Assembly (NCBI GenBank): GCA_022072055.1
Contig: JAJVIK010000010.1
Location: forward strand, 124,001-188,000
Reading direction: 5' to 3'
Origin: a bacterium
GTDB taxonomy: Bacteria > Hinthialibacterota > Hinthialibacteria > OLB16
Length of the DNA stretch: 64,000 nt
This document shows positions 3 through 24,545 of the stretch, one piece after another. The notes under the pieces were generated by a model, which saw nothing but the letters and a program-made list of their open reading frames with translations, was not told the origin of the DNA and made no database searches. Within the stretch, counting starts at the first letter, position 1, and every line of letters starts with the position of its first letter. The translations under genes and the position numbers were made by a program.

Positions 3-1406
3 TTGGTCCTACGAGGGTTTCACAGCTTTCTGGACGCGTTCTGGTCGCCGACGACCGCGCTCAGGGTCTTGCTTCCGGCGGTGGACTGGATGTCGAGGGC
101 GAGCGATCCCCTGGTCGCTCTGTCCCCCTTCTGGATGATCGGCTCCTGGGAGGCGGCCTTTGGCGATCTGAGCGGGCCTGTCGCCTTTGCGGGATTCTGG
201 AACCTGGCGCTCTCGTACTCGCGCACGGACTATCTGGCGATTTTCTCCGACTGCCCGGCGCTCCTTTCGTGGCTGATGCATTGCGCGCTTCAAGTTCTGC
301 TTCTAATAAGCACGGTCCACCTCCTTCGCCGTGGCAAGCACGGTTCCCCGGGGGAGCGGCTCGCGCTCAAGTCGGAAACCCCTTACGGGAGACTTCGAGC
401 GTGGCTGGATTCCCCACCCCGCCGTCGCCGGCGGTTCGCTGCTTTGTGGATCGCTCATTTCCAACTGGAGGACCGCGAGGTTTTTCTCAAGGGCTGGAAA
501 ACCAAGGCTCCGCTGGTCCTCCTCTTCGCGTTGCCGTGGCTGGTTTTCATGCTCTTCCTGATTCCAACGGGCGAGAAAGGGCTGGGGCGAGTGACCGGCG
601 GGGTGAGCTGCTTCCTCGGTTACACCACCGCCTTGGTTCTCTCCGGCGCGTCGTTCCGGCGACAGCGCGACCGAAACACCGCGGTCTTCTTGCTGCTTGC
701 GCCCGGAACCGCTTGGAGGCTCCTCCTGGGCCGGTGGCTGTACTATCAGACCATCGGGGTTGTGGTTTTCGTCACCGGCTTTCTTGCCTCCATCGGGAGC
801 GACATTCTCAGCCGAGGGGTCCTGACTCTATTCGGGTATGGGTACTGGGCGAGATATTCCACCGATGGCTTCTTCACCGTCCTCTGGTTCACCATCGGTT
901 TCCTCCCCTTGGTGACCTTGGTGGGGCTGTATTGCGGTCTCAAGGGACGTTCCCCTTTGCTGATCGCGGGGCTTTTCCCGGTCCTATTCCTCGGGAACGC
1001 GATCCTTCGAGATGTCTTGTACGACCTCGACCGTGACTTGGGTTACGTCTATTCGATCGCGGTCTGGTTGTTGTTTCCGATCGTGGTCTTGGGAGCCGCC
1101 GCTATTTCCCTCAACATCGGAGAAAAGGAGGTCCTGCGAAAGAGCTGGTGGGTCATCCTCACGCGGATCGGGGTGATGACCGTCCTCTTCTGCATTGTCC
1201 TTGTGGACCTGGCGAATTGGAGGCTGGAGACCATTGCATGGGGAAGCGTGGATTATCGGACGCGGACCGCCTACTGGCTGGCGGATGCCGCCATCTTGGC
1301 GCATTGGACAGGCATCCCGGCGTGCCTAGCGTGGCTCCTCTGGGTCTGGCTGGCAAGCCGCAAGCGAGGCTGGTGGCTCTCGCATCTTGTCCCCGACCAC
1401 CTGTAA
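3..1406 (+). CDS. ABC-2 type transporter permease (5' truncated by window edge)
   Basis: The frame is open from the window edge, so the true start probably lies upstream; the TTG at position 3 is only the first possible start. The visible 467 residues hold about ten hydrophobic segments. Near residue 215 a cytoplasmic segment (SFRRQRDRNTAVFLLLAP) followed by LLLGRW resembles the 'ERE-GT-LLL-TP-LLGK' loop of ABC-2 permeases that pair with a separate ATPase. Two membrane-rich halves suggest a large or duplicated permease. The substrate cannot be read from the sequence. The partner ATPase is not in view and is presumably upstream. The next gene is convergent, so this is the end of its operon. 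Confidence 0.6.
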   Translation: MVLRGFHSFLDAFWSPTTALRVLLPAVDWMSRASDPLVALSPFWMIGSWEAAFGDLSGPVAFAGFWNLALSYSRTDYLAIFSDCPALLSWLMHCALQVLLLISTVHLLRRGKHGSPGERLALKSETPYGRLRAWLDSPPRRRRRFAALWIAHFQLEDREVFLKGWKTKAPLVLLFALPWLVFMLFLIPTGEKGLGRVTGGVSCFLGYTTALVLSGASFRRQRDRNTAVFLLLAPGTAWRLLLGRWLYYQTIGVVVFVTGFLASIGSDILSRGVLTLFGYGYWARYSTDGFFTVLWFTIGFLPLVTLVGLYCGLKGRSPLLIAGLFPVLFLGNAILRDVLYDLDRDLGYVYSIAVWLLFPIVVLGAAAISLNIGEKEVLRKSWWVILTRIGVMTVLFCIVLVDLANWRLETIAWGSVDYRTRTAYWLADAAILAHWTGIPACLAWLLWVWLASRKRGWWLSHLVPDHL

Positions 1407-1412
1407 AGCCAC

Positions 1413-4400
1413 TCAATCCTTCCCTTCCATCAACCGGCCTCTCAACGCGATCGTGAGCCGCGCGGTCTCTTTGCGGATTGCGGAGAGTTCCGCAAGATCG
1501 ATCTCGTAATCGATCAAATGGCGGGCGATGTCATCCTGCTCCCACTGTTTGCGGATCAAGTGATGAAGCCGGGAGTCGCACAACTCCTCCGCCTCGCCGA
1601 TCTCGGGCGCCTCAATTCCGCGCCGTTTGGCCTCGGCGGCGGTGGCCTTGAGGAGCAGCAGAAAGCGCGCATCCTCGGCCCCTTCCAGATACGCCAGCCA
1701 GCGGCGGCTCTGAACCAGGTTCGCGCCGTCGCAATACATGTCGCCGTACTCGGAGGAACCGGACTTCTTCCAGAGGTCATCACCCCCCGTGTACCCGAAT
1801 ACCCAGTGACCGGTTCCGGTCATCCCCATCCAGAACGCGGTGAGGCTCAGCGCGCGGTAGTAACCGAGCGGGAGCAGAGTCTTGACCTCACCCGGCGCTT
1901 CGTAGGACCAGAGTCTGTCTCCGGTTTCCCGGAAGAACTCGGCCAAGTCGCTGTCACGGCGCAGCATGGCCAGCTCCGGGGCCCAGACATCAATGTCGTC
2001 CACGAGGCCCCCAAAGTTCTCACGGCTCACCCCTCCCGCCGGGTTGGCATAGACCGGGATTTCCGGCGCGGCGGCCTTGATGGTCTCGACCATCTCGGTG
2101 AACTCCTCGACTCCCCCGAATAGGCCGGGTTCGTCCATCGGGTAGTAGGCCCATCGATCCAGTCCCCAACCCCTGGCCGCAAGGCAGGCGGCCAGTTCCC
2201 GCATCGAGCTCGCCAGTCCCAACTTCCAGATGTCGCTCCCCCTCTCCACCGTGGGCGGCGCGGAAAGCGATGGGCCACTCAGGAGCAGAAAGGTCTTCTC
2301 CGGGTCCAGGTGACCAACCTGACTGTCCAGGCCCGACCAATCCTGGGGGCCGACCAGCCCCCCTTGTTCGTCACATTTCCTCCCGGGTGCGCCCAGCACC
2401 CAGACATTCATCCCTTGGTGGACCACCTCGGAAACCGCGTTCGGATCGGCGGTCATCGACGCCACGGAATCGGGGCGCGCCCAGTTGCAGAGGAAGAACT
2501 CCGGTGCATCCCGCAGATGGATCGGTTCGGCCTCGATCCTCACCGTGAGGTTCATCTCATCTCGATCCTCGCCGATCGGCAAAATGACGACTTTCACCGA
2601 GGTCTCGCCGGGAGCAAGCCCCTCCGTGGAGACCTCAAGCCACACCTGGCGCACCTCGCCGGGCGCGAGATGGAGACTGCTCGACTGGTTCATGCGCGGG
2701 AGCGCATCCGGAATCCAGGATCCATCCCGGCGGGGGACCTGGACCACCTCGCGACCACTGAGGGGACCTCGAAGAGGTAGGCGGAACTGCACATCAAGAG
2801 GGCCGGAGCGCAGATTCGCGACATTCACAACACGATGCTCGACCTCGCCAAGGCAGGCCCAAACTGCAATCCGAGGTTGGTCCGAAAGCTCAGCCGGGGG
2901 TTCCTCCAGGGGGTGAGTTTCATCCCAGGGATTGGAGTCCTCCCAGATCGCCAAGTTGCGATTGGGTGATCGCGCGGCGAGGGCGCCGAGGGACTGAAGC
3001 CGTTCGATGGAGGTCCGGTAAACGTCAATCTCCTTGGCGAAGGCGATCCGCGCGGGGGAGTCATCCTCAGCAAGTTGGGCTGACCGTTGCACCAAGCCAT
3101 CCAAGCCGCCTTCAATCTGGGATGCCTTTTCGAGCAGCATCCGGCCCGCTTCGGGGCGGCTCGCGAGAAGGTCCGAGGCGGATTCTCGAACCGCGCCAAG
3201 CTTCCGGTCGGTCCAGGTTTTCAGACTCTCGACCCCGGGGAGGTTGACCCGGAGACTTCCCTTGGCAAGGCAGCGCGCGGGTGCGCTGCCCTCATCCCAC
3301 AATGAAACCTCGATCAAATGGTCGCCCGGTTTGTCCACGACAAAGGGGAGTCGGGCAAGGGGATGCTCGGCATCCACGCTGAGTATCCTCGATGTGTGGA
3401 CCCCGGTTGGATCGCTGACCCTGATCCGGACGAATCCGCGTTCCGGCGTGCCGGCTGGAGTTGTGGCCAAGGCATGGTTTGTCCCCCAAAGGACCGGTTC
3501 CTCCACCTTGAGACTCAGGCTCTCGGGGGAACCCAAATCGAGAGTGGGAACCTCCTTCGGTTTCACCGTGGAGGGGATATATCCTGTACGCGACGAGTTC
3601 GCGCGCTTGACCGGCCAGGGGGCGGCGGCCCGCGCCTCCGCGCCGAAGCGGTAAACTTCGACCTTGTTGTGCTCCCATGTGGCCAGGATCAGCTCCTGTT
3701 TTCCATCCTGGTCCCAATCCGCCACCAGGGGAGGGTAGCTGTTACGTCCCTCATGCGGGTATGCGGCGCGAATCCCTCCGGTTGCGGCATCCAGGATGAA
3801 GAAAGCCTTGCCCTTTTCGCTCGAATCCCGGCAGACCGCGAGGATTTCGAGCGAGCCATCGCCATCAATGTCCGCGATGGTATGCGGGTGCATGTACCCA
3901 CGCCCGCCTGTCGTGGTTCGCCACAGTTCTTTACCGGAATGGTCGAATGCATAGAGCGTGTTGGCGCGCTCGCAGTAAGTCACTTCGAGGTCGCCGTCCG
4001 AGTCGATGTCCGCGACAGAACAGGAGCCATAGCCGTGGAGAATGGTCCGCGCCGACCAGAGCGGCGCGCCATCCCAGGCGCGGGCGGCATAGAGGACCGG
4101 GGCGGTCTCATTGAAGCTCTGGGACCAGACTGCCTCATGGAGCCCATCCTGATCGAGATCGGCCAGGGCCACATATGATCTTCCGAACTTGCCGCGCGCG
4201 CGGTGAAGCCAGCGCAGATCTCCGCTCGCATTCAGGCAAATCAGGCGATTGTTCTCTGTTCCGAAGACAATCTCCGGCGTTCCATCCCCATCCACATCCC
4301 CCACCGAGGGCTGCCCGATGCGAAAACTATCGGGATGTATTCGCCAGCAGAGCTTGCCATTTCCGGAAAGGCAGGTGAGCCAACCCCCGTCATCCGAGAC

Positions 4401-4865
4401 CAGGACTTCCGTCGCGCCATCGCCATCGAGGTCCGCGCAGGTGGGGCCGCGCCATCCCCCGACCTCGCCCTCCAAGGTGTAACGCCAGAGTTCCCTTCCC
4501 TCCCAGTCGAGCGCCACAACCCGGACAAGGTCCGCGACCACCAGCAATTCCTCGCTCCCTTGGCCATCAAGGTTCCCCACCGCCGCCGGAGACAGAACCG
4601 AGTCGCCGACCCGGGTGGTCCAAAGGGTGTCTCCCTTGCCTGAAAGGAACAGGACCTCCCCGTTCACCAGCGGGACCGCCAGCCCCCGCGCGTCCGAGGT
4701 AGAAGGAAACAGCGCGGCGGGTCCGCCGATCTTGGACGGTAGAGTGTAGGTGGCCACCGGTGCGAGAGTCTCCGGGACCTCCGAGGCCGCGACTTGAGCA
4801 AGAGCTCCCACCAGGCCGACGATTCCCAGCGTTCTAAGGCGTGGACGGAAGTGAAATCGCGCCAT
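1413..4865 (-). CDS. Secreted FG-GAP/VCBS propeller protein with C-terminal DUF4091-like domain
   Basis: 1150 residues with an N-terminal signal-type segment (residues 8-28). Residues about 45-420 carry repeated calcium-binding-type aspartate motifs (DLDGDG near 145, DVDGDG near 190, DLDQDG near 236, DIDSDG near 286, DIDGDG near 332, DWDQDG near 383), typical of integrin-like FG-GAP beta-propellers. Two beta-rich segments and a helical segment follow (about 430-790). The last 350 residues contain YPMDEPG (D911 E912 P913) and aromatic-rich strands, as in DUF4091/GH123-like domains. A role in binding and cleaving polysaccharide outside the cell is inferred, not shown. GGAGG lies 5 nt before the ATG, which directly follows the stop of the upstream gene, so the two are probably co-transcribed. 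Confidence 0.7.
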   Translation of the reverse strand: MARFHFRPRLRTLGIVGLVGALAQVAASEVPETLAPVATYTLPSKIGGPAALFPSTSDARGLAVPLVNGEVLFLSGKGDTLWTTRVGDSVLSPAAVGNLDGQGSEELLVVADLVRVVALDWEGRELWRYTLEGEVGGWRGPTCADLDGDGATEVLVSDDGGWLTCLSGNGKLCWRIHPDSFRIGQPSVGDVDGDGTPEIVFGTENNRLICLNASGDLRWLHRARGKFGRSYVALADLDQDGLHEAVWSQSFNETAPVLYAARAWDGAPLWSARTILHGYGSCSVADIDSDGDLEVTYCERANTLYAFDHSGKELWRTTTGGRGYMHPHTIADIDGDGSLEILAVCRDSSEKGKAFFILDAATGGIRAAYPHEGRNSYPPLVADWDQDGKQELILATWEHNKVEVYRFGAEARAAAPWPVKRANSSRTGYIPSTVKPKEVPTLDLGSPESLSLKVEEPVLWGTNHALATTPAGTPERGFVRIRVSDPTGVHTSRILSVDAEHPLARLPFVVDKPGDHLIEVSLWDEGSAPARCLAKGSLRVNLPGVESLKTWTDRKLGAVRESASDLLASRPEAGRMLLEKASQIEGGLDGLVQRSAQLAEDDSPARIAFAKEIDVYRTSIERLQSLGALAARSPNRNLAIWEDSNPWDETHPLEEPPAELSDQPRIAVWACLGEVEHRVVNVANLRSGPLDVQFRLPLRGPLSGREVVQVPRRDGSWIPDALPRMNQSSSLHLAPGEVRQVWLEVSTEGLAPGETSVKVVILPIGEDRDEMNLTVRIEAEPIHLRDAPEFFLCNWARPDSVASMTADPNAVSEVVHQGMNVWVLGAPGRKCDEQGGLVGPQDWSGLDSQVGHLDPEKTFLLLSGPSLSAPPTVERGSDIWKLGLASSMRELAACLAARGWGLDRWAYYPMDEPGLFGGVEEFTEMVETIKAAAPEIPVYANPAGGVSRENFGGLVDDIDVWAPELAMLRRDSDLAEFFRETGDRLWSYEAPGEVKTLLPLGYYRALSLTAFWMGMTGTGHWVFGYTGGDDLWKKSGSSEYGDMYCDGANLVQSRRWLAYLEGAEDARFLLLLKATAAEAKRRGIEAPEIGEAEELCDSRLHHLIRKQWEQDDIARHLIDYEIDLAELSAIRKETARLTIALRGRLMEGKD

Positions 4866-6023
4866 CTAAGCCTCCAAAAGTTTGTCCAATGCCGTCCAGA
4901 AGGCCGAGAGCCAATGGCGGCCGGCGTGGACAAAGCCATGCTCCAGTTCGTCCAGCCAGAATTGGATCCAAGCATCCCTCCGCCATTGGGCATAGGTCTC
5001 AAAGGCGGTGGCCCACCGCTCAGGTGAAGTGGGGAGAGGGAGTCCAAGCGGACGAAGCGCGGCCCGATACAGGATCTCCGCCTCCGGGCCCGCGCTGAGG
5101 CACTGCGCGTGCCACACCTTTCGGGTGGGGGCATGGTGGATGACCGCGAGGGCGACCAGAGTTCCGCCATCAATGGCGCCATTGCGCATCGGGAACACGA
5201 CATAGCAGAAGCCATCCCGCATTTGCTTCAGAATCACCGGCCTCGCGGAGGTGTGGAAACCGCCGCGCAGGGCATACTCGGTTTCAACACGCCAGATTTC
5301 GGAGGCCAGGATGTCTTGTGTCACCTGCTCCTCGGCAGGGGCGAGTTCGATGGCGGGCGCGGGGAGTTCAGGAAGAGTCCACTTGCAGGTTTCATTTCCA
5401 GGCAAGGGAACATCATAGAACGGCGAGCCCCAATCGCAGGGTTTGCACCAAGCGCAAAAGTACAGGCGACGGAGCGCCCAGAAATAACCGTTCCGCCAGC
5501 GACGAGAGGCCTCGGCGGCTCCAAGCGTTTCCCGCTCCTGCTGGAACCGGCTCCAGAGGGCCTTCTTGTGCTCCACCATCCGACGTGTGGCGCGGTCGCC
5601 ATCAGCGCCGTTCTGAGCCTTGGGCGCGGCCATTGGGCCATCCAGGTGGGCAAGCAGCGGATTCACCCCCGGCCCGGCGTGCATCGGGTGCGCATACAGG
5701 GTCTTGAGCGGGTCGAGGCTCGATAGGGTCACCACCGCGACCACCGAGCCATCCTCTAGCGCGCCGCCGCGAACCGGGAAGATCACCCTCAGGTGTGGGC
5801 CGGGCATTCGTTTCCAGAGCACGGGGGGATCTTCGACAATCTCTTGTCCCAACGGTTTCAGGAGGGTGCGGAGCGCCTGAACCGGGGGGCTGTCCAACAC
5901 CGAACCAAACTGCCTCCCCAGAAGCGATCCCGGCGCGGGGGGAGCCGTCGGGTCCTCCTCCAGCCAAACTGGGTAACAGGGGGCGGATGAGAAAGCTGGT
6001 TGTCGGATAGGAATTGCAGTTGT
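4866..6023 (-). CDS. Uncharacterised protein with a tandem-duplicated domain
   Basis: 385 residues from the ATG at 6023, chosen because AGGGGG precedes it; an ATG 27 nt upstream is also in frame. No signal peptide is obvious and no family is recognised. Two stretches align by eye: residues about 63-126 (LWKRMPGPHLRVIFPVRGGA, then AHPMHAGPG) and about 259-326 (ILKQMRDGFCYVVFPMRNGA, then AQCLSAGPE). A linker holds CAWCKPC (about 190-196), which could be a metal or redox site, and Trp/Arg-rich helices follow each copy. Its stop codon abuts the start of the propeller/DUF4091 gene, which suggests a shared task. It may also be read through from clpB, 66 nt upstream. Confidence 0.6.
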   Translation of the reverse strand, partial: TTAIPIRQPAFSSAPCYPVWLEEDPTAPPAPGSLLGRQFGSVLDSPPVQALRTLLKPLGQEIVEDPPVLWKRMPGPHLRVIFPVRGGALEDGSVVAVVTLSSLDPLKTLYAHPMHAGPGVNPLLAHLDGPMAAPKAQNGADGDRATRRMVEHKKALWSRFQQERETLGAAEASRRWRNGYFWALRRLYFCAWCKPCDWGSPFYDVPLPGNETCKWTLPELPAPAIELAPAEEQVTQDILASEIWRVETEYALRGGFHTSARPVILKQMRDGFCYVVFPMRNGAIDGGTLVALAVIHHAPTRKVWHAQCLSAGPEAEILYRAALRPLGLPLPTSPERWATAFETYAQWRRDAWIQFWLDELEHGFVHAGRHWLSAFWTALDKLLEA

Positions 6024-16318: not shown

Positions 16319-16367
16319 GGAATCAACGTACGGGCAGGCGGCTGATCGGTCAATAAGGGTTGAACAG

Positions 16368-16397
16368 GTCCCTCGAATCGCTACCCTGTGGAGGGAC
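16368..16397. promoter_or_regulatory. Inverted repeat in the divergent TPR / binding-protein intergenic region
   Basis: GTCCCTC at 16368-16374 and GAGGGAC at 16391-16397 are perfect 7-nt inverted arms separated by 16 nt. They sit between two divergent start codons (16318 and 16417), just downstream of a weak -35-like TTGAAC at 16360-16365. The position suits an operator or a leader hairpin. The arms are short and chance is possible. Confidence 0.3.
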
Positions 16398-16416
16398 TGT
16401 CCGGAGAGGTCGGGCC

Positions 16417-19314
16417 ATGCAGAGACTCTGTCCAGCCATCGCGATCACCCTGTTGCTCGTTTTCACGCGCGCGGATCCCCAAGCGCGCTCCGAAATCCCC
16501 GTGAGCATCGAGGTGGGCAACCTCAACGCCGAGGATGGAGACATCTGGCTCCGTGGGGAGATCGAAAGTTTTCGCCGCGCGCACCCCAACATCCGGGTTC
16601 GTCTCTCCACCCTTGGTTTTCCCTCACGCAACGACATCCGCATTGAGCACTTGCCCGACCTTGCCTCGAACGTGCTGGGGGTAATCAGCGACCAGGGTTA
16701 CGAGATCACGTATCTGGTTGAACGGGACTTGATCCGTCCCATCGAGAGTTTCTTGCCGGATCCCGATCTGCGTTTGGAGGATTTTATCGGCAACAGTCTG
16801 GACGCTGTCACCTACAAGGGGAGGGTGTGGGGAATCCCATTCCTGGCCGCCTCCGTGTTGTTCCTGATTGATCAAGAGCTCTTCAGGCAGGCTGGGATAT
16901 CGAATCCACCCGCCACTTGGGATGAGGTTCTGGAGTATTCGCGGCGTTTGACTCGAGATTCCGATGGAGATGGGCGCGTGGATCAGTGGGGGTTTCGCCT
17001 GGGGATGCGCGGACGTCACGACACCCACATGTTTTTTCTGTGGCTGACTTTGGCGCTTCAGAAAGGGGCCGAAATCCTTCGCGAAGGGCGCGTGCAGCTC
17101 GATCACCCCGCTCTCCGCGAGGCCTATGATTTTCTGATGGCGCTACAGTCCTCAGGAGGCGCAAGGACCGACAATCGCCGCTTGCGCGAGACTCTCGCCG
17201 ATCAGACCGTTCGCTACGCCATGCAGATTGCCCCCACCTACCAGATCGGCCCGGCGGCCGGGATGATCCATTTTCGGATCATCCCCTGGCCCACATGGGG
17301 CAGGCCGGTCATCCCGGATGAGCGCCGTCACTATCTGGTGATCGGCAAGAGCACCCCCGAGAAGGAGGCGGCATCCTGGGAGTTCGTGAAATGGATGGTT
17401 CGGGCCGAGGCTCCCCATCCTCCGCAGGCCCAGTTCTTCGGGATATCTTGCCGGAAGGACCTGATCGAGCGCCCCGAAGTTCGCGCCAAGATCGACCGTT
17501 GGGCGCGGGGTTTTGATGTGGTCCAGGAGACCAAGGGGTGGAATCTCCGGCACGGGGACCCGGTGATGGGACGGTTTGACGCGCTTGAGCATCTCGAAAC
17601 GATTGTCACCAGGATGTTCCACTCGGAGATCTCCTTCGAGGAGGCGATGCGGATCGCCGAGACGGAGTGCAACGCGATCCTCCGTGATGCTCGCGGGATC
17701 GCGCAGCCTTACGCCTTGTATTTGCCGGACTCCACAGCTTCCAGCCAGACTGTTCAAGACCCCACGCTGGAGGCCCTATTCTCCGACTCAAGGGATATTC
17801 TGAAGACGCTTCCGAATCACCCCGGCGCGGAAGCTCTGCTGGATCGAACGCTCAAGATCTCCTCCGAGCCCTCTCACCGAGCGGGATTGCCCGCGCTGAT
17901 GGCCCAGTTTCCCGATCATCCGATGGGCCTCTTTGCGCTCGAAAAGACATTCATTGAGGCGGCCTCCGAAGGGACAGGGCGGAACCTGTGCGAGCAGGTC
18001 TTGAGGGACCATCAAGGATCATCTCTTTCGCTGCTGGCGTGGGACCTCCGGCTTCGTCTGCTTCCGCCTGATCAGCGTCTGGAGGTCATCCGCGAAGGCG
18101 TGGAGGGAGAGGACGATTCATTGCGGAGGGTGGCGCTGTTTCGACTTGCCGAGGACCTCCGTGAGATAGGAGACTTCGCGGGGGCGGCCGTTGCGTATCT
18201 CCGGTTCTGGGGAGATCATCCGGAGTGTGTTTCAAGGATGGGCCGGGACCGTGCGATCTTGGCTTGTCTCAAGAATGCGGGACACCCGTTGGACGCCGAA
18301 GCCCTGCTCGAGCTTTCGGATCCGGGATGGGTCGCGCGGATACTCCACGAGGCCCATGTGTCGGGTCTGCCTTCGGAGAGCGCGATTTTGATGCCCTTGC
18401 GGGAGTGGTGCGGCGCCGTGATGGATGGAAGCGACACGGAGGCGGACTGGACCGCCCTTGTTTCGGAAACTTCAACCTCCGAGTCAACGACCCGGACTCT
18501 CGAACTGGCGATGGAGGCGATCTACCGCGCCGCATCGATCGATCTGGCGCTTCGAGCGCGCACCGCCACGCTGTCGGAATGGGCGCTTCGAGGGACTTAC
18601 CGGTTGGAGTCCCCGCTGGACCGCGAGCTTGCCCGAAAGCTCGCGCTTCGCGCTTTCCACGCCGGAGTCAACGCCGCGCGCTCCGAAATCAGATGGCGGC
18701 CGCTTGCTTACCGGGTGTTTGAGTGTGCGAGACATCCTCTTGAGCGCCAGGGGGATTTCTCGTTAATCCTCTCGTTGCTCGAAGAGCTTGTGGACAAGGT
18801 TCCCGATGACCGGGAAAGCCCAGTCGCCCTTCAACGACTTGGGGAGCTCGCGCGAGACCGGGGGGAATTCGATCGCGCGCTCGGCGCGCTCGCGCGTGTC
18901 GCCGAGCAGTTCCCCGATTCGGAGGTGGCGGATGAGGCGGTTCTCACCCGAGGAGTCTGGCTTTACAGCGCGGGGCGTTACGCCGAGGCCAAGGAGGCCT
19001 TTGCTCGGTTATCGACCGTCGAGGGCAGGCCCCCCTCCGCGTTCCTCGAGCTCGCTGCCCTTTTTTGCGAAAGCGCGAATGATTCATCCCGCGACCTGGA
19101 AACCGAGCTCCAATCGTTCATACTCCAGCAGCACGACCATCCCCTCGCCAGGCGCGCGAGGCTGCTCCTGTCCGCAATGTATGTGGACCGGCTTGCGTTT
19201 CCCTTAGCCAAGGAAGTCTTGAGGAAGCTGAATCCGCCCGCCTCGGGAGACCCCGTTTGGGATCGATCCGCTCAAGCGCTTAAGGCGCTAAATTTCTCGC
19301 TATCGGAGCCATAG
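16417..19314 (+). CDS. Family 1-type extracellular solute-binding protein fused to C-terminal TPR domain
   Basis: 965 residues from the ATG at 16417 (GGAGAGG upstream). A signal peptide without a lipobox (AIAITLLLVF) is followed by a sugar-type binding domain (about 28-430). It shows SFRRAHPNIRVRLSTLGFPS, the hinge phrase YKGRVWGIPFLAASVLFLID, PPATWDEVLEYSRRLT and ASWEFVKWMV, all typical of MalE/UgpB-like proteins. From about residue 440 to the end the protein is helical repeats, with TPR-like units such as DRGEFDRALGALARVAEQFP. No permease or ATPase genes lie nearby, so it may be a sensor or scaffold rather than a transport component. The fusion is unusual. Confidence 0.75.
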   Translation: MQRLCPAIAITLLLVFTRADPQARSEIPVSIEVGNLNAEDGDIWLRGEIESFRRAHPNIRVRLSTLGFPSRNDIRIEHLPDLASNVLGVISDQGYEITYLVERDLIRPIESFLPDPDLRLEDFIGNSLDAVTYKGRVWGIPFLAASVLFLIDQELFRQAGISNPPATWDEVLEYSRRLTRDSDGDGRVDQWGFRLGMRGRHDTHMFFLWLTLALQKGAEILREGRVQLDHPALREAYDFLMALQSSGGARTDNRRLRETLADQTVRYAMQIAPTYQIGPAAGMIHFRIIPWPTWGRPVIPDERRHYLVIGKSTPEKEAASWEFVKWMVRAEAPHPPQAQFFGISCRKDLIERPEVRAKIDRWARGFDVVQETKGWNLRHGDPVMGRFDALEHLETIVTRMFHSEISFEEAMRIAETECNAILRDARGIAQPYALYLPDSTASSQTVQDPTLEALFSDSRDILKTLPNHPGAEALLDRTLKISSEPSHRAGLPALMAQFPDHPMGLFALEKTFIEAASEGTGRNLCEQVLRDHQGSSLSLLAWDLRLRLLPPDQRLEVIREGVEGEDDSLRRVALFRLAEDLREIGDFAGAAVAYLRFWGDHPECVSRMGRDRAILACLKNAGHPLDAEALLELSDPGWVARILHEAHVSGLPSESAILMPLREWCGAVMDGSDTEADWTALVSETSTSESTTRTLELAMEAIYRAASIDLALRARTATLSEWALRGTYRLESPLDRELARKLALRAFHAGVNAARSEIRWRPLAYRVFECARHPLERQGDFSLILSLLEELVDKVPDDRESPVALQRLGELARDRGEFDRALGALARVAEQFPDSEVADEAVLTRGVWLYSAGRYAEAKEAFARLSTVEGRPPSAFLELAALFCESANDSSRDLETELQSFILQQHDHPLARRARLLLSAMYVDRLAFPLAKEVLRKLNPPASGDPVWDRSAQALKALNFSLSEP

Positions 19315-19455
19315 GGCCCCCGGGGCGGCATAAGGTAGATAAAAGGCGAAAATCTCCCGATCTGTAACCTGCTGAAAAACCAAGAGATAAAAAAATTTTC
19401 GACGCATACCCCCCCTTTCCCGACAAATATAAGTGGAAGGGGAAAGAGAAACTCC
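19315..19455 (+). promoter_or_regulatory. AT-rich promoter region upstream of sigma factor gene
   Basis: This 141-nt gap is much richer in A and T than its surroundings (a run of A and T at 19386-19400). It holds TGTAACCT at 19363-19370, with the AAC core common in ECF -35 elements, and GATAAA about 15 nt later. TATAAG occurs at 19428-19433. GGAAGGGGAAAGAG precedes the ATG. No single promoter is compelling, but autoregulation by the adjacent sigma factor would be expected here. Confidence 0.3.
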
Positions 19456-20052
19456 ATGGGCGGACGGGTTTTTCAGGTGAGCATCTCCGACCTGAAGCGG
19501 TTGGAGGAGAGCGCTTGGAGTCAGGTGTATTCGGCGCTCAAGGACCATGTCTTCAACCTGGCCATGCGCCGGACTGGGGACCGGGACCTTTCGCTCGATG
19601 TGGTCCAACAAACCTTCATCACCGCGATGGCCACGATTGACAAGTTCAATGGAGACGGTCCTCTGCTGGCGGGTTGGATCACGGGCATCGCGCGGAATGT
19701 GGCCTATAGCGCCCGGCGCATGGAGGAATCCTTATCATCCCATCCGGATTACCCTCGCCCACCCATCTTAGATCGAGCGCCCCTTCCCGACATGACCCTG
19801 ATGATGCTTCAGGACCAGGAAGTGTTCGAACTGGCTCTCAGCGGGTTGCCGAAACACTGGGAGGAAGTCTTGCGCTGGCGATATTGCGAAGACCTGTCAC
19901 TCGATGAAATCGGGCGACGTCTCGAACTTTCTCCTCGTTCGGCGGAGTCCCTGGTGCGACGCGCGCGCAACGCGCTCCAGGAGGCGATTCTGGACATTGT
20001 TGGAGGCGAGAAACCGCCTCTTGGCCACCTCAGGGAGGTGCGTGTTCTATGA
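19456..20052 (+). CDS. ECF-like RNA polymerase sigma-70 family factor
   Basis: 198 residues with two conserved blocks. Region 2 (about 30-85) reads HVFNLAMRRTGDRDLSLDVV, then QQTFITAM and a WITGIARNVA segment for core binding and -10 recognition. Region 4 (about 125-180) has ALSGLPKHWEEVLRWRYCED followed by the helix-turn-helix LSLDEIGRRLELSPRSAESL. Domains 1 and 3 are missing, as in ECF sigma factors. The stop overlaps the start of the next gene by 4 nt (ATGA), which implies translational coupling, the usual arrangement for a sigma factor with its membrane anti-sigma partner. The regulon is unknown; the following small secreted genes are the likeliest targets. Confidence 0.88.
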   Translation: MGGRVFQVSISDLKRLEESAWSQVYSALKDHVFNLAMRRTGDRDLSLDVVQQTFITAMATIDKFNGDGPLLAGWITGIARNVAYSARRMEESLSSHPDYPRPPILDRAPLPDMTLMMLQDQEVFELALSGLPKHWEEVLRWRYCEDLSLDEIGRRLELSPRSAESLVRRARNALQEAILDIVGGEKPPLGHLREVRVL

Positions 20053-21914
20053 CCGACCCGCGCGATCGCACACCCCTTGAAGATTCCGATCTCAAGCGCT
20101 TTCTGGAGAAGACCCCGATGCTGGAAAGGCTGACCGAACAGGAGCAGGTTCAAATCGAGCGGCAGTTGATGGCGGAACTTCGCAGGATCAAGCAAGCGCG
20201 GGATATCGTCCCGTGGTGGAAGAGCGTCGACTGGCGCGCGGTGGGGATCGCGGCGGTTGTGCTCCTGAGTTTCGCCGTGGTGTATCTCTATCCGATCTTG
20301 TTCAAACCTCCGGCTCGCCCGCCGGATCCAGACGCTCCCGGTCACGGGATCATGCCTCCGGCTCGCGCGGTGGGTCCGGTTTTTAACCGGTCCGATCCGA
20401 GTGCGGCTGACAGCATCCAAGCGCCGTTTCCGGATGCCCCGACTCCGGCGACCGGGACCTTGGAAGAGCCCACCCGAACCCAGCTCAACTGGCTCCCCAA
20501 GGAGAACTTATGTGGTCCGAACAGCCTCTGGATCGCCGCGCTCCGCCTCGGTGTCCAGGTTGAGCAGGAGCAGGTGGCGAGGGCGGTCGACTCCGAGGAG
20601 GGTGGCGCCACGCTCTGGGACTTGAAACGCGCGGCGGAAGAATTGGGGCTGCAAGCCGAGGGCGTGCGGATGACTTGGGAGGAGTTGCGAGAGTTGGAAG
20701 GGCCGGCGGTGTTGTTCGTCCGCGGGGATCACTTCGTCTGCGTCGATCCCCGAGAACGAGCAGACCCAACGGAATCGATCCGGGTCCATGACCTTCCACG
20801 GCCCGCGGAGTGGGTGACACGCGGTCAGATTGAGACCGAATGGAGCGGGGAGGCGTTGGTCCTTTCGCGCGCCGACACCGGGATTCCGCCAGGCTGTCCG
20901 AGCATTCGCATGGATTCACTCTATGAGGATTTTGGGGTTGAGGAGGGACCGGTCACTCTTTCGTTCCCCTTCCGAAACCTCGGATCTGAGCCGTTGGAAA
21001 TCCTTGAGGTCCGCCCATCGTGCGGGTGTCTCTCGGTGGCGCCGGCGGTCGACCGGATCCCTCCCGGTGGAGAAAGCGCCGTGCTTGTGGATCTCAACCT
21101 TTCGGGCCAGGAAGGCGTCCAGAAACGAACCGTGGAGATCAAGACGAACGATCCGGACCGTCCGACAGTCGAACTGTTCCTCCATGGCTTGGCGCGCAGC
21201 TCAATCCGGGTTTCCGCCGACAAAGTGAACTTCGGCGAATTGGCGGTTGGGGAGCGCGCCACGCGCGGCTTCGCCATTTTTGACCGGTTCGACGGAACCT
21301 TGAAAGTCACCGGAGTGGAACTCTCGCTGGAATCCGCCGTGGAGTCTCCCCCCAAGCTCTCAGTCCACTTCGAGAGGGTGGCCCCGGAGGTGGCGCGGGA
21401 GCGAACACGGAAGTATGCGCTGGGCGAAAACGCGATTGCCTACTGGGTTGAGGTCGAAGCCGAGGTGACCTCCGAGACATCCCAGGAGGGTTTCAGGGGA
21501 CAGGTGCTGGTTAAGACCGATTCCGAGCGACCTCCGGTCATTGCTGTTCCCTTCGAGCTCAACGTTCTGGGCGACTACTACGCTGTTCCGGAGAAGGTCT
21601 ATTTCGGTCTGGTGCGACCGGGCCAAGCGATCTCGAGGGAGATATCGATCCGGCGGAGGTCGGGTGCTCGAGCGGAGATCGAGGCCGCGCGCGCCCTACG
21701 CCGTGGATTGGATTCCGAGAGCGCTGGGGGAATTCATGTCGACTTGGATACCGCCCCCACGACCGAGGGAGAGGCGACCGTTCGCCTGGTGATGGCGCAT
21801 CGCGATGGGGCGCACGCGCCGGCGGGCTTTGAGTCGGGAATCTTGGAAGTAAGAGCCAAGGATGGCGCGATCCTCCGCGTTCCCTGGACTTCAATTCAAT
21901 CGGATGGACAGTGA
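20049..21914 (+). CDS. Membrane protein with extracytoplasmic C39-peptidase-like and DUF1573 domains; possible anti-sigma partner
   Basis: 621 residues. An N-terminal charged helical segment (1-58) is followed by one membrane helix (about 64-84) and a Pro-rich linker. Residues about 145-272 resemble a C39 peptidase: NLCGPNSLW with nucleophile-position C155, then VLFVRGDHFVCVD with H218, and a downstream Asp (D248 in VHDLP). The usual oxyanion Gln six residues before the Cys is not in place. Residues about 285-385 form a DUF1573-like Ig domain with FRNLGSEPLEILEVRPSCGC; more beta domains follow. Topology puts the peptidase outside the cytoplasm. Translational coupling to the sigma gene and the cytoplasmic N-segment suggest an anti-sigma or sensor role, but no known anti-sigma domain was recognised. 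Confidence 0.7.
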   Translation: MTDPRDRTPLEDSDLKRFLEKTPMLERLTEQEQVQIERQLMAELRRIKQARDIVPWWKSVDWRAVGIAAVVLLSFAVVYLYPILFKPPARPPDPDAPGHGIMPPARAVGPVFNRSDPSAADSIQAPFPDAPTPATGTLEEPTRTQLNWLPKENLCGPNSLWIAALRLGVQVEQEQVARAVDSEEGGATLWDLKRAAEELGLQAEGVRMTWEELRELEGPAVLFVRGDHFVCVDPRERADPTESIRVHDLPRPAEWVTRGQIETEWSGEALVLSRADTGIPPGCPSIRMDSLYEDFGVEEGPVTLSFPFRNLGSEPLEILEVRPSCGCLSVAPAVDRIPPGGESAVLVDLNLSGQEGVQKRTVEIKTNDPDRPTVELFLHGLARSSIRVSADKVNFGELAVGERATRGFAIFDRFDGTLKVTGVELSLESAVESPPKLSVHFERVAPEVARERTRKYALGENAIAYWVEVEAEVTSETSQEGFRGQVLVKTDSERPPVIAVPFELNVLGDYYAVPEKVYFGLVRPGQAISREISIRRRSGARAEIEAARALRRGLDSESAGGIHVDLDTAPTTEGEATVRLVMAHRDGAHAPAGFESGILEVRAKDGAILRVPWTSIQSDGQ

Positions 21915-21926
21915 GAGGAGGAAATC

Positions 21927-22418
21927 ATGAGTGGGTGGCTGTATGGGTTTGGGATGGCGTTACTGGTGGCGTTATCCATGAATTATGGGTGGGCGGGTCC
22001 ACGGCCGCTGACGCGCGCGGAAATGGAGTCCGCTCGAGGCGGGCACGGGCCCTCCTGCACGGAGTGCACGGCTGACTTTTGGGTCTTTCATGAATGCAAT
22101 CACTCAACGCCGAGCGACCCCTGCCAGGGGAGTCAGTGCATTGAATTCCAAATCATTGAAGACACCTGCTTCATTCGTGAAAGCGGCATCTGCCTGGCGG
22201 AATTGGACCCGTACAGTATCGCGGCCGTCAAATATTTGCGCGAAGACACCAATTGCACGACCAACAATTCGGGGCCGTCACAAGTGGTCTTCACGCACTA
22301 TTACGGAAGTGAGTGTCTGTCCCGGTATTGGCTTACCCGCTGCCCAAAGACGGGAGGGCCGTGTAACGGGGAATTGATCGACTCGGCCGACCTGTATCTG
22401 GCAATCGCGTGCTATTAA
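21927..22418 (+). CDS. Secreted cysteine-rich protein with double-glycine leader-like motif
   Basis: 163 residues with a strong ribosome site (GAGGAGGAAATC). An N-terminal hydrophobic signal (residues 3-23) is followed by GPRPLTRAEMESARGG, ending in G38-G39, which resembles the L-x2-E(L/M)-x2-(A/V)-x-GG pattern recognised by C39 peptidases. The remaining 124 residues hold exactly 12 cysteines, suggesting six disulfides, and many Asn, Thr and Ser residues. No family is recognised. The gene lies 12 nt after the extracytoplasmic C39-like protein, so proteolytic maturation at Gly-Gly after Sec export is a direct structural prediction. It could be a signalling peptide, a toxin or a surface protein. 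Confidence 0.7.
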   Translation: MSGWLYGFGMALLVALSMNYGWAGPRPLTRAEMESARGGHGPSCTECTADFWVFHECNHSTPSDPCQGSQCIEFQIIEDTCFIRESGICLAELDPYSIAAVKYLREDTNCTTNNSGPSQVVFTHYYGSECLSRYWLTRCPKTGGPCNGELIDSADLYLAIACY

Positions 22419-22437
22419 CAGATTGGAGGAACCGAAG

Positions 22438-23403
22438 ATGAGGATCGAACACAAAGCAGTGGTCGTGGCCGTCCTCGTGGCGGCTGGGATGGTCGCGGCG
22501 GCGCCCGCACAGGACCAGGCCCTTCCGATCCGCGAGATGCTGGACGCCTTCGATCAGGCCTTTTTCTCGTCGTGCACGGTCAGGCTCCGCGCCACGTTGC
22601 CGGCGACAGCCTTTGATTTGAGCCAAGGACTCATCGACGCGGATGTGGTGATGAGCGCCGATGGCGCGGAGCAGGCCCTCTTCGTGGAGCGGCATGAGAT
22701 CGCCAACCCGGTATTCAACGCCAACGAAATTCGACGGACCAATGACCAGGGGGAGAACTACGAGGTGAGCTTGGAAAAGCGGAGTTTTGTGTTGCTTGCC
22801 CGTGACGCCTGGAGTCGACGCGCCGATTTCCAGACCCTTTCGATCACTCCGCAAAGCTCCCTCGCGGGGATTTCCGTGAGCCGTCCACTCGTTGAGGTTC
22901 GCCCAGTAAGACATCCGGACGCCGCCAACCTGTTCTACCGGTATGTCCTCCAACTCGGGCGGGGGTATTCGGGTCTGCTTTCGGAGGTCACCGCGGTGGA
23001 GGAGCAACCGGATGGAACTGTCCGCGTCGAGGGAAGGGGAACCCTCTTTTCCCCGCATGTGGGCGCCTGGGAACTCATCGTGGACCTGACCCAGGGATGC
23101 TTGGTGACTTCCGCCTCCTTCAAACAAGATGACGGCGCCGAAAAGTCACTCATCGGGGGAGAGGATGGCGCGGAGATCGTGGGAACCGAACTCCCGATCC
23201 TCTCGAAGGGAACCTTCCACCTTGCACCGGACTACCCGATTACAGTCGAGGTCCAAGAGTACACCCGCTCGGCCTCGCCCACTCTCATCGCGGATGTACG
23301 CCAAGCGGTCGGTTCTCCGGGCGGTAACTTCACGCTCCTGGATTTCTCAAACGTGGACGGCGCTGGGGCGCCGCTCGTGGTTAAGGGAAGGAAGGCCGAG
23401 TGA
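22438..23403 (+). CDS. Secreted protein of unknown function in the sigma/C39 cluster
   Basis: 321 residues; GGAGGA at 22425-22430 fixes the ATG at 22438. The signal peptide runs to about residue 25 (VLVAAGMVAAAPAQD). The mature protein is rich in beta strands and resembles in outline LolA-like or outer-membrane lipoprotein-sorting folds: an initial helix (IREMLDAFDQAFFSSCTVRL) and then repeated strands, one of which reads GAWELIVDLTQGCLVTSASF. No catalytic motif is evident. It follows the cysteine-rich gene by 19 nt and is almost certainly in the same operon, so it may carry or bind that product. Confidence 0.6.
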   Translation: MRIEHKAVVVAVLVAAGMVAAAPAQDQALPIREMLDAFDQAFFSSCTVRLRATLPATAFDLSQGLIDADVVMSADGAEQALFVERHEIANPVFNANEIRRTNDQGENYEVSLEKRSFVLLARDAWSRRADFQTLSITPQSSLAGISVSRPLVEVRPVRHPDAANLFYRYVLQLGRGYSGLLSEVTAVEEQPDGTVRVEGRGTLFSPHVGAWELIVDLTQGCLVTSASFKQDDGAEKSLIGGEDGAEIVGTELPILSKGTFHLAPDYPITVEVQEYTRSASPTLIADVRQAVGSPGGNFTLLDFSNVDGAGAPLVVKGRKAE

Positions 23404-23434
23404 TTCATTTGCTTGTACTGTAAGGAGCCCAATC

Positions 23435-23656
23435 ATGCTTGCATCAGTCATCCAACTCCGTTTCCAGCAGGACTCTCGCCATGGTGTGCGGGAGGATGCA
23501 TTCAGGGAACGTCCCAGCGAGGAATTCCTGACACGTCTGGAAGACATCCTTGTCCTTGGGAGTCGAACGACGCGAAGCTCGGGCGCCGATGTCCTCACGC
23601 CGGACTTCCCACGCGGCCTTGTGAGGTCGCCCCATGCCACCCTTCGCGAAGAGTAG
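23435..23656 (+). CDS. Small unknown protein at the end of the sigma/C39 cluster
   Basis: 73 residues. AAGGAG lies 6 nt before the ATG, good support for such a short gene. The protein is charged (many Arg, Glu and Asp), has no signal peptide or membrane helix, and begins MLASVIQLRFQQDSRHGVRE. It starts 31 nt after the preceding secreted protein gene. The function is unknown; a cytoplasmic regulator or immunity-type partner is possible. The alternative is that it is a chance frame, because GC-rich DNA often holds frames of this length. Confidence 0.4.
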   Translation: MLASVIQLRFQQDSRHGVREDAFRERPSEEFLTRLEDILVLGSRTTRSSGADVLTPDFPRGLVRSPHATLREE

Positions 23657-23789
23657 ATCCTTTGAGCGACATCCCCCAACGGGGTGGGTCCTCCAATCGG
23701 ACGCGCGCCCGCCGGGAGAGACTCGCGCTTGCGCTCCGGACCCGCGCTCCTCTAAACTGATTGGAAAGCGGAGGGAGGATCAAGTCTTG

Positions 23790-24455
23790 ATGGTCCCGGT
23801 AGAGAGAGGGGAGCGAGTCGGTTTCGGAGGGGGCTTCACGTTGATTGAGCTCCTGGTGGTTTGCTCGATCATTCTGATCTTGGTCTCCATCTCGATGCCC
23901 AACTACATGGAGTCCATGACCCGAGCCAAGGTCGCGAGGGTGACCGCCGACATGCGCTCGCTCTCCGTGGCGATGACCTCCTACGCCTTGGATTTCAAGT
24001 ATTATCCGCCGGATCACCACCCGAGCATTTTCCGCCCCGACCTCAAGGGGCTAAACCAACTCACCACCCCGATTGTGTACATCGATGCGGTTCCGTATGA
24101 CATCTTCAATCCCCCCAACAGCGGGATGAACGCCACGGAGGCCTCGTTTGGGATGGCTTCCACCGGCAAGACCATCACCCAGATGATGCAGTTCGGGGAT
24201 CGACCCAAGGTTCAGGCTTTCGCGATTTACAGCAACGGACCGAGCCTTTTGACCCGGTTTTACGGGATCGAGGAGTGGCCCTGCCATGCCGGAATTGACC
24301 CGTGCCCCAACAAGGTGGGGTTCCTCCGTTACAGCCCCACCAACGGCACCAAATCGCCGGGGGCCATTCTTCAGCTGGGTGGAGAATCCCGGTCAGGGAA
24401 CTACTGTGTCGACCGGATCACACCGGTTCGCGGGTTCAACCCGCCTGGGTGTTGA
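23790..24455 (+). CDS. Type II secretion/type IV pilin-like prepilin
   Basis: 221 residues. The ATG at 23790 follows GGAGGGAGG. The prepilin motif is GGGFTLIELLVVCSIILILV, cleaved before Phe by a PilD-type peptidase, with the conserved Glu at mature position 5. The helical stalk continues MPNYMESMTRAKVARVTADM, and the globular region holds YYPPDHHP and YSPTNGTKSPG, as in GspG-like pseudopilins. It is not accompanied by GspE/F-type genes, so it is an orphan subunit; many environmental phyla have scattered copies. A second prepilin lies at 31546. Confidence 0.88.
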   Translation: MVPVERGERVGFGGGFTLIELLVVCSIILILVSISMPNYMESMTRAKVARVTADMRSLSVAMTSYALDFKYYPPDHHPSIFRPDLKGLNQLTTPIVYIDAVPYDIFNPPNSGMNATEASFGMASTGKTITQMMQFGDRPKVQAFAIYSNGPSLLTRFYGIEEWPCHAGIDPCPNKVGFLRYSPTNGTKSPGAILQLGGESRSGNYCVDRITPVRGFNPPGC

Positions 24456-24545
24456 TCACGGCGTTCGGGCGGGCGTGAGAAAGAGGTTCGCGGAGAGCGC
24501 ACCGGTTCCCGGGACTCGTGAGCGTGGATGCTCGCGCGTTTCGCC

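Follow-up and report, generated by a model that had tools for sequence, protein, structure and literature searches.

A predicted extracytoplasmic C39 peptidase beside a secreted cysteine-rich precursor with a double-glycine leader suggests a route of peptide maturation outside the cell

Exporter-bound C39 peptidase domains usually cut double-glycine leaders at the cytosolic face of the membrane, according to the available text of PMC5557850. What might such a domain be doing when it is predicted to lie on the other side of the membrane, encoded just upstream of a secreted, cysteine-rich protein? The question is raised by a 64,000-nucleotide stretch of DNA from a bacterium of the Hinthialibacterota (GenBank assembly GCA_022072055.1, contig JAJVIK010000010.1, positions 124,001 to 188,000), referred to here as the window. 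An original prediction, made from the letters alone, had placed a five-gene operon at window positions 19456-23656, in which a sigma factor would control the production and maturation of an envelope or secreted peptide. On re-reading, all five open reading frames (ORFs) were confirmed at these positions, in order and on the + strand. We consider it likely that the locus encodes a two-step export and maturation system, in which Sec export would be followed by leader removal by an outside C39 domain, with redox help, delivery and sigma control as further elements. The two genes central to this reading have the following features.

20049..21914, + strand: membrane-anchored C39 peptidase-DUF1573 protein, 621 residues (Pfam, AlphaFold2 model, structure match)
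20244..20303, + strand: single transmembrane helix, residues 66-85 (hydropathy 2.47; model helix 62-84)
20499..20879, + strand: C39 domain, residues 151-277 (PF03412, 9.4e-14, Pfam span 152-276; 6mpz match)
20511-20513, 20730-20732 and 20790-20792, + strand: catalytic residues C155, H228 and D248 (family columns, 42 loci)
21927..22418, + strand: secreted cysteine-rich precursor, 163 residues (no match in Pfam, NCBIfam or PHROGs)
22008..22043, + strand: leader of the double-glycine type, LTRAEMESARGG (residues 28-39), with the cut predicted to follow G39 (strict pattern; matrix rank)
22044..22415, + strand: predicted mature chain H40-Y163, 124 residues, with 12 cysteines, 16 acidic and 6 basic residues, as would result from that cut

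The translation bears out the GG at residues 38-39 of the precursor and the 12 cysteines after it. The motif LTRAEMESARGG follows a signal-peptide-like hydrophobic start, which points to export of the precursor by Sec. With L at -12, M at -7, A at -4 and GG at -2/-1, it has the make-up of a double-glycine leader, the consensus for which is LSxxELxxIxGG. Hydrophobic residues at -4, -7 and -12 are what the C39 peptidase LahT150 needs, according to the available text of a review (PMC10885120). A matrix built from 18 of the 22 leaders of other loci (L078, L137, L139 and L190b were excluded as odd in length or nearly identical) ranked the window leader first of 78,844 window positions, and first of 247,149 when 20 control regions were included, at 17.1 bits versus 15.2 for the next-best position. 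At the DNA level, the strict pattern L[ST]xxEMxxxxGG has a single match in the whole 5.86-Mb genome, within the precursor gene, and its reversed control has 0. Judged by its sequence, the GG of the precursor is thus part of a full double-glycine leader rather than a chance pair. Elsewhere in the same genome, five further relaxed matches were translated (all but L224 and L225), and in none of them is the motif both preceded by a hydrophobic start and followed by a cysteine-rich chain; L220 has six cysteines after a relaxed motif with no hydrophobic stretch before it. L006, a second place in this genome, shows a weak likeness to the cysteine-rich protein (E 0.03) and contains one internal stop.

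The partner protein belongs to the C39 family by its PF03412 score (51.8 bits, cut-off 22). Its AlphaFold2 model, built from 12 sequences, has a mean predicted local distance difference test score (pLDDT) of 74.0 and a predicted template-modelling score of 0.40, with pLDDT ranging from 64 to 89 in ten-residue blocks over residues 151-280. The predicted C39 domain superimposes on 6mpz_A with Z 16.9 and a root-mean-square deviation of 2.0 over 123 residues, consistent with a papain-like C39 fold; 6mpz is a double-glycine protease with a bound leader peptide, and the next matches are ComA and PCAT1 at Z 14.9-16.6. These matches came from a second structure aligner and not from Foldseek, where, with the whole model as query, ciliary, immunoglobulin-type and cadherin repeat proteins dominate among the 50 matches listed. 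Of the two active-site residues originally proposed, C155 and H218, the first stands; there is no histidine at 218, and the catalytic one is H228, while D248 occupies the Asp position of the family. The proposed check of fold and active site came out, in part, in favour of a peptidase, in that the predicted fold is that of C39 and Cys, His and Asp fall in the family columns. The domain follows the transmembrane helix, and from this topology is predicted to lie outside the cytoplasm.

Within the window's own genome (5.86 Mb, assembly estimated 96.6% complete), PF03412 detects only one C39 domain, that of the window protein, and pairing of the precursor with a C39 exporter in this genome was rejected for that reason. 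Because this single domain sits in a gene that ends 12 bases upstream of the precursor gene, the arrangement is one of a lone outside C39 peptidase beside a double-glycine precursor. We predict that the C39 domain cuts the G39-H40 bond, on the strength of the leader itself, the retention of the catalytic residues, the linkage of the two genes and the joint absence elsewhere of catalytic cysteine and precursor, described below. Lipoprotein-like C39 proteins were also seen. In L043 (G010:C34), from the window's class, ORF 916-1881 (+ strand) encodes a lipoprotein-like C39 protein with no DUF1573 seen in the frame, a possible further extracytoplasmic C39 peptidase; in L083, from another genome, a stand-alone 177-residue C39 protein (5468-6001, - strand) has a lipoprotein-like start and is too short for an exporter.

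To what extent does the gene pair recur? Relatives were sought in sets of 61 and 386 genomes (the latter with a three-row alignment) and in phylum-wide searches of 2, 64 and 84 genomes. The 61- and 386-genome searches yielded C39-DUF1573 relatives of full length in G012, which belongs to the window's class, and in G052, G142, G157, G329 and G127. The comparison covered 42 loci (the window, L035, L036, L078-L081 and L123-L157); full-length hits from the 84-genome search, G519:C112, G515:C50, G494:C200 and G502:C61, stand outside this set. Controls were 20 regions (265 kb) from the phylum of G329, ten around DUF1573-only genes and ten arbitrary. A detector requiring a hydrophobic start, a relaxed leader motif and at least five cysteines after the motif found a leader-bearing cysteine-rich ORF in 17 of the 42 loci and in 0 of the 20 controls, and all 17 ORFs run in the same direction as the C39 gene; for the strict motif the figures were 5/42 and 0/20. 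Three more leaders were recognised by eye (LGYKELECVKGG in L036, LTTNEMKKVIGFGG in L078 and one ending in GA in L080), giving 20 of 42. The pair was seen in at least five phyla: the window's, those of G142 and G127 (taken as phyla other than the window's, and absent from the other phylum lists), Latescibacterota and Poribacteria. The linkage of peptidase and GG-type precursor that the original prediction had proposed to look for in related genomes is thus a recurring one, and its overall interpretation is supported in part by the recurrence of a pair whose members are both predicted to lie outside the cytoplasm.

When each of 18 leaders was scored with a matrix from which it had been held out, 11 ranked first in their own locus and L130 second, and L190a came second only to the other precursor of its own locus. 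The last leader residue lies 35 to 75 residues into the protein. The mature chains behind the leaders (n = 23, window included) carry 6-16 cysteines and are mostly unrelated, apart from three small groups of like sequences, a diversity in keeping with a constant leader that serves a free choice of envelope or secreted products. Gene order in the Armatimonadetes locus L179 runs from a tetratricopeptide repeat (TPR) gene through a cysteine-rich protein with LTPMDQASLSGG and a beta protein to C39-DUF1573. L190, from an unclassified genome (MAG-56), has two precursors near a beta-C39 fusion that lacks DUF1573; these related cysteine-rich precursors (1570-1995 and 4371-4826, + strand) have nearly identical leaders, consistent with substrate duplication. 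Five of the hits in Bacteroidota/Flavobacterium (L194, L195, L199, L201 and L206) are exporter-sized C39 frames, that of L195 being cut by the contig end, and the Poribacteria loci L186 and L193 contain broken or partial C39 frames, with no precursor among the ORFs shown.

Does the precursor depend on an intact peptidase? The catalytic cysteine is replaced in 15 of the 42 loci (L140-L142, L145, L147-L157), and in the stretches examined a leader-bearing precursor lies beside 0 of these 15 versus 20 of the 27 others, among which we count L135, whose N-terminus is unresolved. With L135 left out, the comparison of 19/26 with 0/15 gives p = 2.7e-6 when relatedness is ignored, and the joint absence of catalytic cysteine and leader-bearing precursor is suggestive. 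Across the 20 leader-bearing loci the catalytic histidine is always kept (20/20) and the cysteine in 19 (L135 being unresolved), while the Asp place holds Asp in 15, Glu in two, Asn in two and Pro in one. At L145, where the catalytic cysteine has become serine, a cysteine-rich secreted neighbour (5619-5975, - strand) has no leader, whereas in L144 and L146, which are closely related to L145, catalytic cysteine and leader are both still present. Beside L178 of the Omnitrophota, which by eye has Ser at the site, no precursor was seen, one flank being only 1.3 kb long.

The second domain of the partner protein lies downstream of the peptidase.

20940..21167, + strand: DUF1573 domain, residues 298-373, with C325 and C327 in a CGC motif (PF07610, 1.9e-15)

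DUF1573 domains in the plural had been proposed; one curated domain was found, although beta structure extends as far as residue 617 in the model. Twelve of the 42 loci (L035, L133, L148-L157) have an in-frame TGA precisely where the first cysteine of this domain would be encoded, and the C325 column holds Cys or TGA in 41/42, with Gly in L147. The available text of PMC9312934 lists DUF1573 as a selenoprotein family with the motif UGC. The TGA at this column suggests selenocysteine in some relatives; the peptidase cysteine is already lost in 10 of the 12 TGA-bearing loci, and these Cys-less proteins look as if they had turned redox-only. In L078 (6181-8847, + strand, 888 residues) the C39-DUF1573 chain extends, by eye, into a thioredoxin-like (CxxC) and multi-helix membrane part, an extension with no Pfam family above cut-off. 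From the TGA/Cys column, the selenoprotein listing and the L078 extension together, we think it fair to infer a redox role for DUF1573 in the folding of cysteine-rich products.

The gene after the precursor encodes another secreted protein.

22438..23403, + strand: secreted protein ('beta'), 321 residues, occupying the gene position that a LolA-like protein has in related loci

Gene position is the basis of this assignment; neither LolA_like nor any other family matched the window's beta protein. Among nine counterparts, LolA_like exceeded its cut-off of 30 in two (L081, 30.7; the N-terminal piece of the L190 protein, 30.2), the whole L190 protein scoring 29.4, and a structure model of the beta protein was unusable (poor alignment, pLDDT 35.5). 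A secreted protein of about 280-390 residues lies near many precursors, as read from ORF lists and not counted systematically, and in L126, L127, L134, L141, L142, L143 and L035 such a protein forms the N-terminal part of the peptidase chain itself.

At the head of the operon lie the sigma gene and the first part of the membrane protein.

19456..20052, + strand: ECF-type (extracytoplasmic function) sigma factor, 198 residues (Pfam Sigma70_r2 2.1e-11 and r4_2 7.3e-9; NCBIfam sigma70-ECF 2.4e-24)
20049..20237, + strand: residues 1-63 of the membrane protein, helical, presumably cytoplasmic (model helices 12-53; relative in G002)

The predicted ECF-like sigma factor holds up, with Pfam sigma regions 2 and 4 matched and NCBIfam sigma70-ECF at 85.8 bits (cut-off 42.9), the Pfam family Sigma70_ECF itself falling below its cut-off (17.4 versus 21.1). 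The ATGA coupling is likewise as described: the sigma gene ends at 20052 and the membrane-protein gene starts at 20049. Residues 1-63 may be a sigma-binding, anti-sigma-like part, and no known anti-sigma domain was found in the membrane protein with Pfam and NCBIfam. In G002, from the same family as the window, a 198-residue sigma factor is encoded in a like setting; the next gene overlaps the sigma gene, is truncated where the contig stops, and encodes an N-terminus related to that of the window protein (38% identity, E 4.5e-4). This is the one clear relative of the N-terminal segment among the 14 genomes of the class searched, and, by a count that was not systematic, no compared locus other than the G002 pair shares the sigma overlap. 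Regulator types vary: an ECF sigma occurs in the window and in L138, which has no precursor, a BlaI-type repressor with a BlaR1-type M56 peptidase gene in L079 of the Latescibacterota, and a BlaR1-type M56 gene in L123 of the same phylum. A sigma gene is thus not a general feature of these loci. In the window it probably switches the operon on; a scan of window positions 18500-24500 found no sigma-70-type promoter.

The gaps after the membrane-protein gene are 12, 19 and 31 bases, and Shine-Dalgarno-like sequences precede the cysteine-rich, beta and 73-residue genes. These three encode proteins without any Pfam or NCBIfam match, and no RiPP-modifying enzyme (ribosomally synthesised and post-translationally modified peptide) was matched among the five genes in these databases.

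23435..23656, + strand: 73-residue ORF (AAGGAG upstream; codon-position G+C resembling that of its neighbours; no family match)

This last ORF may or may not belong to the operon. Upstream, at window positions 16360-19314, a solute-binding-protein domain is fused to TPR repeats; a TPR-like gene also lies, by eye, upstream of the G002 sigma gene, and TPR genes occur near the precursor in L078 and L179. Just downstream of the operon, the product of 23790-24455 resembles a pseudopilin, scoring 47.9 bits with the GspG model, whose cut-off is 88.85.

How might these parts work together? In the two-step export and maturation system that we favour, the cysteine-rich precursor would leave the cytoplasm by Sec; outside the inner membrane, the C39 domain of its anchored partner would bind the double-glycine leader and cut after G39, freeing the 12-cysteine chain. 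The Cys/Sec site of DUF1573 probably, though with less assurance, helps to form or sort the disulphides of the product, and a probable task of the beta protein, whose counterparts in relatives are LolA-like, is to chaperone or deliver it. The ECF sigma factor probably turns on transcription of the operon, with the N-terminal part of the peptidase as its possible anti-sigma factor, which is the weakest step.

Several observations weigh against this reading. The precursor start (MSGWLYGFG...) is weakly hydrophobic and has no positive charge, and the window protein has Ala nine residues past its catalytic cysteine, where most relatives have a second Cys. The strict pattern was built with the M seen in the window leader itself, and a looser pattern is at background in the window's genome, with 8 matches versus 7 reversed. 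The relaxed motif was formulated after many loci had been inspected, which makes the other-locus matrix the cleaner test; by-eye calls were sought in test loci only, and all controls come from one phylum. By the held-out matrices, the leaders of L080 (rank 192), L129 (122), L144 (6), L179 (4) and L036 (3) are weak. Homologues lacking GG had been named in advance as a reason to abandon the idea, and the outcome did not overturn it: the leader is kept in many, though only 11 of 22 end in GG, the rest ending in GA, AG, GS, GT, AT or GL. Seven of the 27 Cys-keeping loci have no precursor; L127, L128, L132 and L133 run into a contig end, and L035, L138 and L143 do not. On the tree the cysteine was lost only three to four times, leaving three usable independent contrasts on supported branches, about two of them in the expected direction, none opposite and about one without difference, so the joint loss is not significant because the independent losses are too few.

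Could the leader be bound and left uncut? The C39-DUF1573 protein might mainly be a redox folding factor or chaperone for cysteine-rich proteins, with the leader as its docking site. C39-like domains of some type 1 exporters bind substrate only, the DUF1573 Cys/Sec site is present in 14 of the 15 loci without the catalytic cysteine, and thioredoxin-like stretches are, by eye, fused to the protein in L078 and encoded next door in L079. Against this stand the catalytic Cys and His kept in leader-bearing loci (19/20 and 20/20) and the absence of the leader wherever the Cys is gone (0/15), and we regard mere docking as distinctly unlikely. That the peptidase acts on some other protein, the GG-type motif being a by-product of the pair's common ancestry, would accommodate the 7 of 27 Cys-keeping loci with no leader-bearing neighbour in the examined stretch, but from locus to locus the 12 leader residues remain similar and the mature parts mostly show no relationship, and the distance of 35 to 75 residues from the start to the leader end also speaks against it; we hold this to be very improbable.

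A different proposal concerns control rather than cutting, and is compatible with the two-step system: the product, or its uncut form, would act on the membrane protein and so release the sigma factor, which would couple transcription to processing. The ATGA overlap, the similar sigma/N-terminal pair in G002 and the BlaI and BlaR1-type pair in L079 favour such a peptide-sensing circuit, whereas the lack of a known anti-sigma domain, the single clear N-terminal relative in 14 class genomes and the rarity of the sigma overlap count against it, and we would treat it as a tentative and rather unlikely addition. Bolder, and in our view unlikely, is a two-headed outside maturase and sensor. Its C39 head would take the double-glycine leader off the Sec-exported precursor, its Cys/Sec DUF1573 head would set the disulphides of the released chain, and its cytoplasmic end would keep the sigma factor bound until substrate arrives, whereby maturation would control its own expression. 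Such a pathway would be widespread in uncultured phyla and would apply the leader logic of bacteriocins with no ABC (ATP-binding cassette) exporter.

How far is the two-step export and maturation system a new arrangement? Peptidase-containing ABC transporters (PCATs; ComA, PCAT1, LahT) have in common with the window the C39 fold (Z 14.9-16.9, 6mpz included), the catalytic residues and a leader with hydrophobic -12/-7/-4 positions and GG. PCATs fuse C39 to ABC domains, whereas the window protein (621 residues) has no ABC domain among its Pfam matches; its C39 domain comes after a transmembrane helix, with a predicted location outside, and its substrate, unlike that of a PCAT, has a Sec-type start before the leader. 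The classical arrangement of an N-terminal leader and PCAT export is therefore not what was found, the leader here following a Sec-type hydrophobic stretch. TIGR04149, a family of GG-leader RiPP precursors, gives weak matches to the leader region in four out of ten precursors (14.4-16.8 bits, cut-off 25) and none to the window precursor; PHROGs gave no match for the four cysteine-rich proteins tested. To our knowledge, TIGR04149 peptides lack a Sec signal. As described in the available text of PMC5557850, a paper of 2017, the C39 peptidase FapD, from the Fap amyloid system of Pseudomonas, is active in the periplasm, the Fap proteins have no canonical C39 sequence, and what FapD targets is unclear. 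The window protein resembles FapD in its predicted place outside the cytoplasm, and on that account an extracytoplasmic C39 peptidase alone is not new. Membership of the FapD family was rejected (NCBIfam FapD 16.1, cut-off 330; no Fap family over cut-off in the five genes), as was that of OS_HP2 (window domain 55.6 bits, cut-off 100). DUF1573/OS_HP2 (seleno)proteins have the CxC or UxC site in common with the window protein, in which DUF1573 is joined to a C39 peptidase.

C39 domains, double-glycine leaders, the periplasmic FapD and DUF1573 selenoproteins are all known parts. Among the open-access papers covered by the searches (subscription papers lay outside the scope), we found no pairing of a Sec signal and double-glycine leader with C39-DUF1573 and no joint mention of C39 peptidase and DUF1573, and NVEALA was likewise not found. 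The gene pairing suggests a route of peptide maturation outside the cell that we have not seen described. If this is true, it would be a separate route to disulphide-rich peptides, with an exporter-type leader but an outside peptidase. A double-glycine peptide search by Dirix in 2004 reportedly started from exporters, and exporter-based searches would not be expected to find such systems. For uncultured phyla, the locus provides a search rule, a hydrophobic start, LSxxEMxxLxGG and a cysteine-rich chain beside C39-DUF1573, and it may serve as a candidate natural model for the role of periplasmic C39 peptidases.

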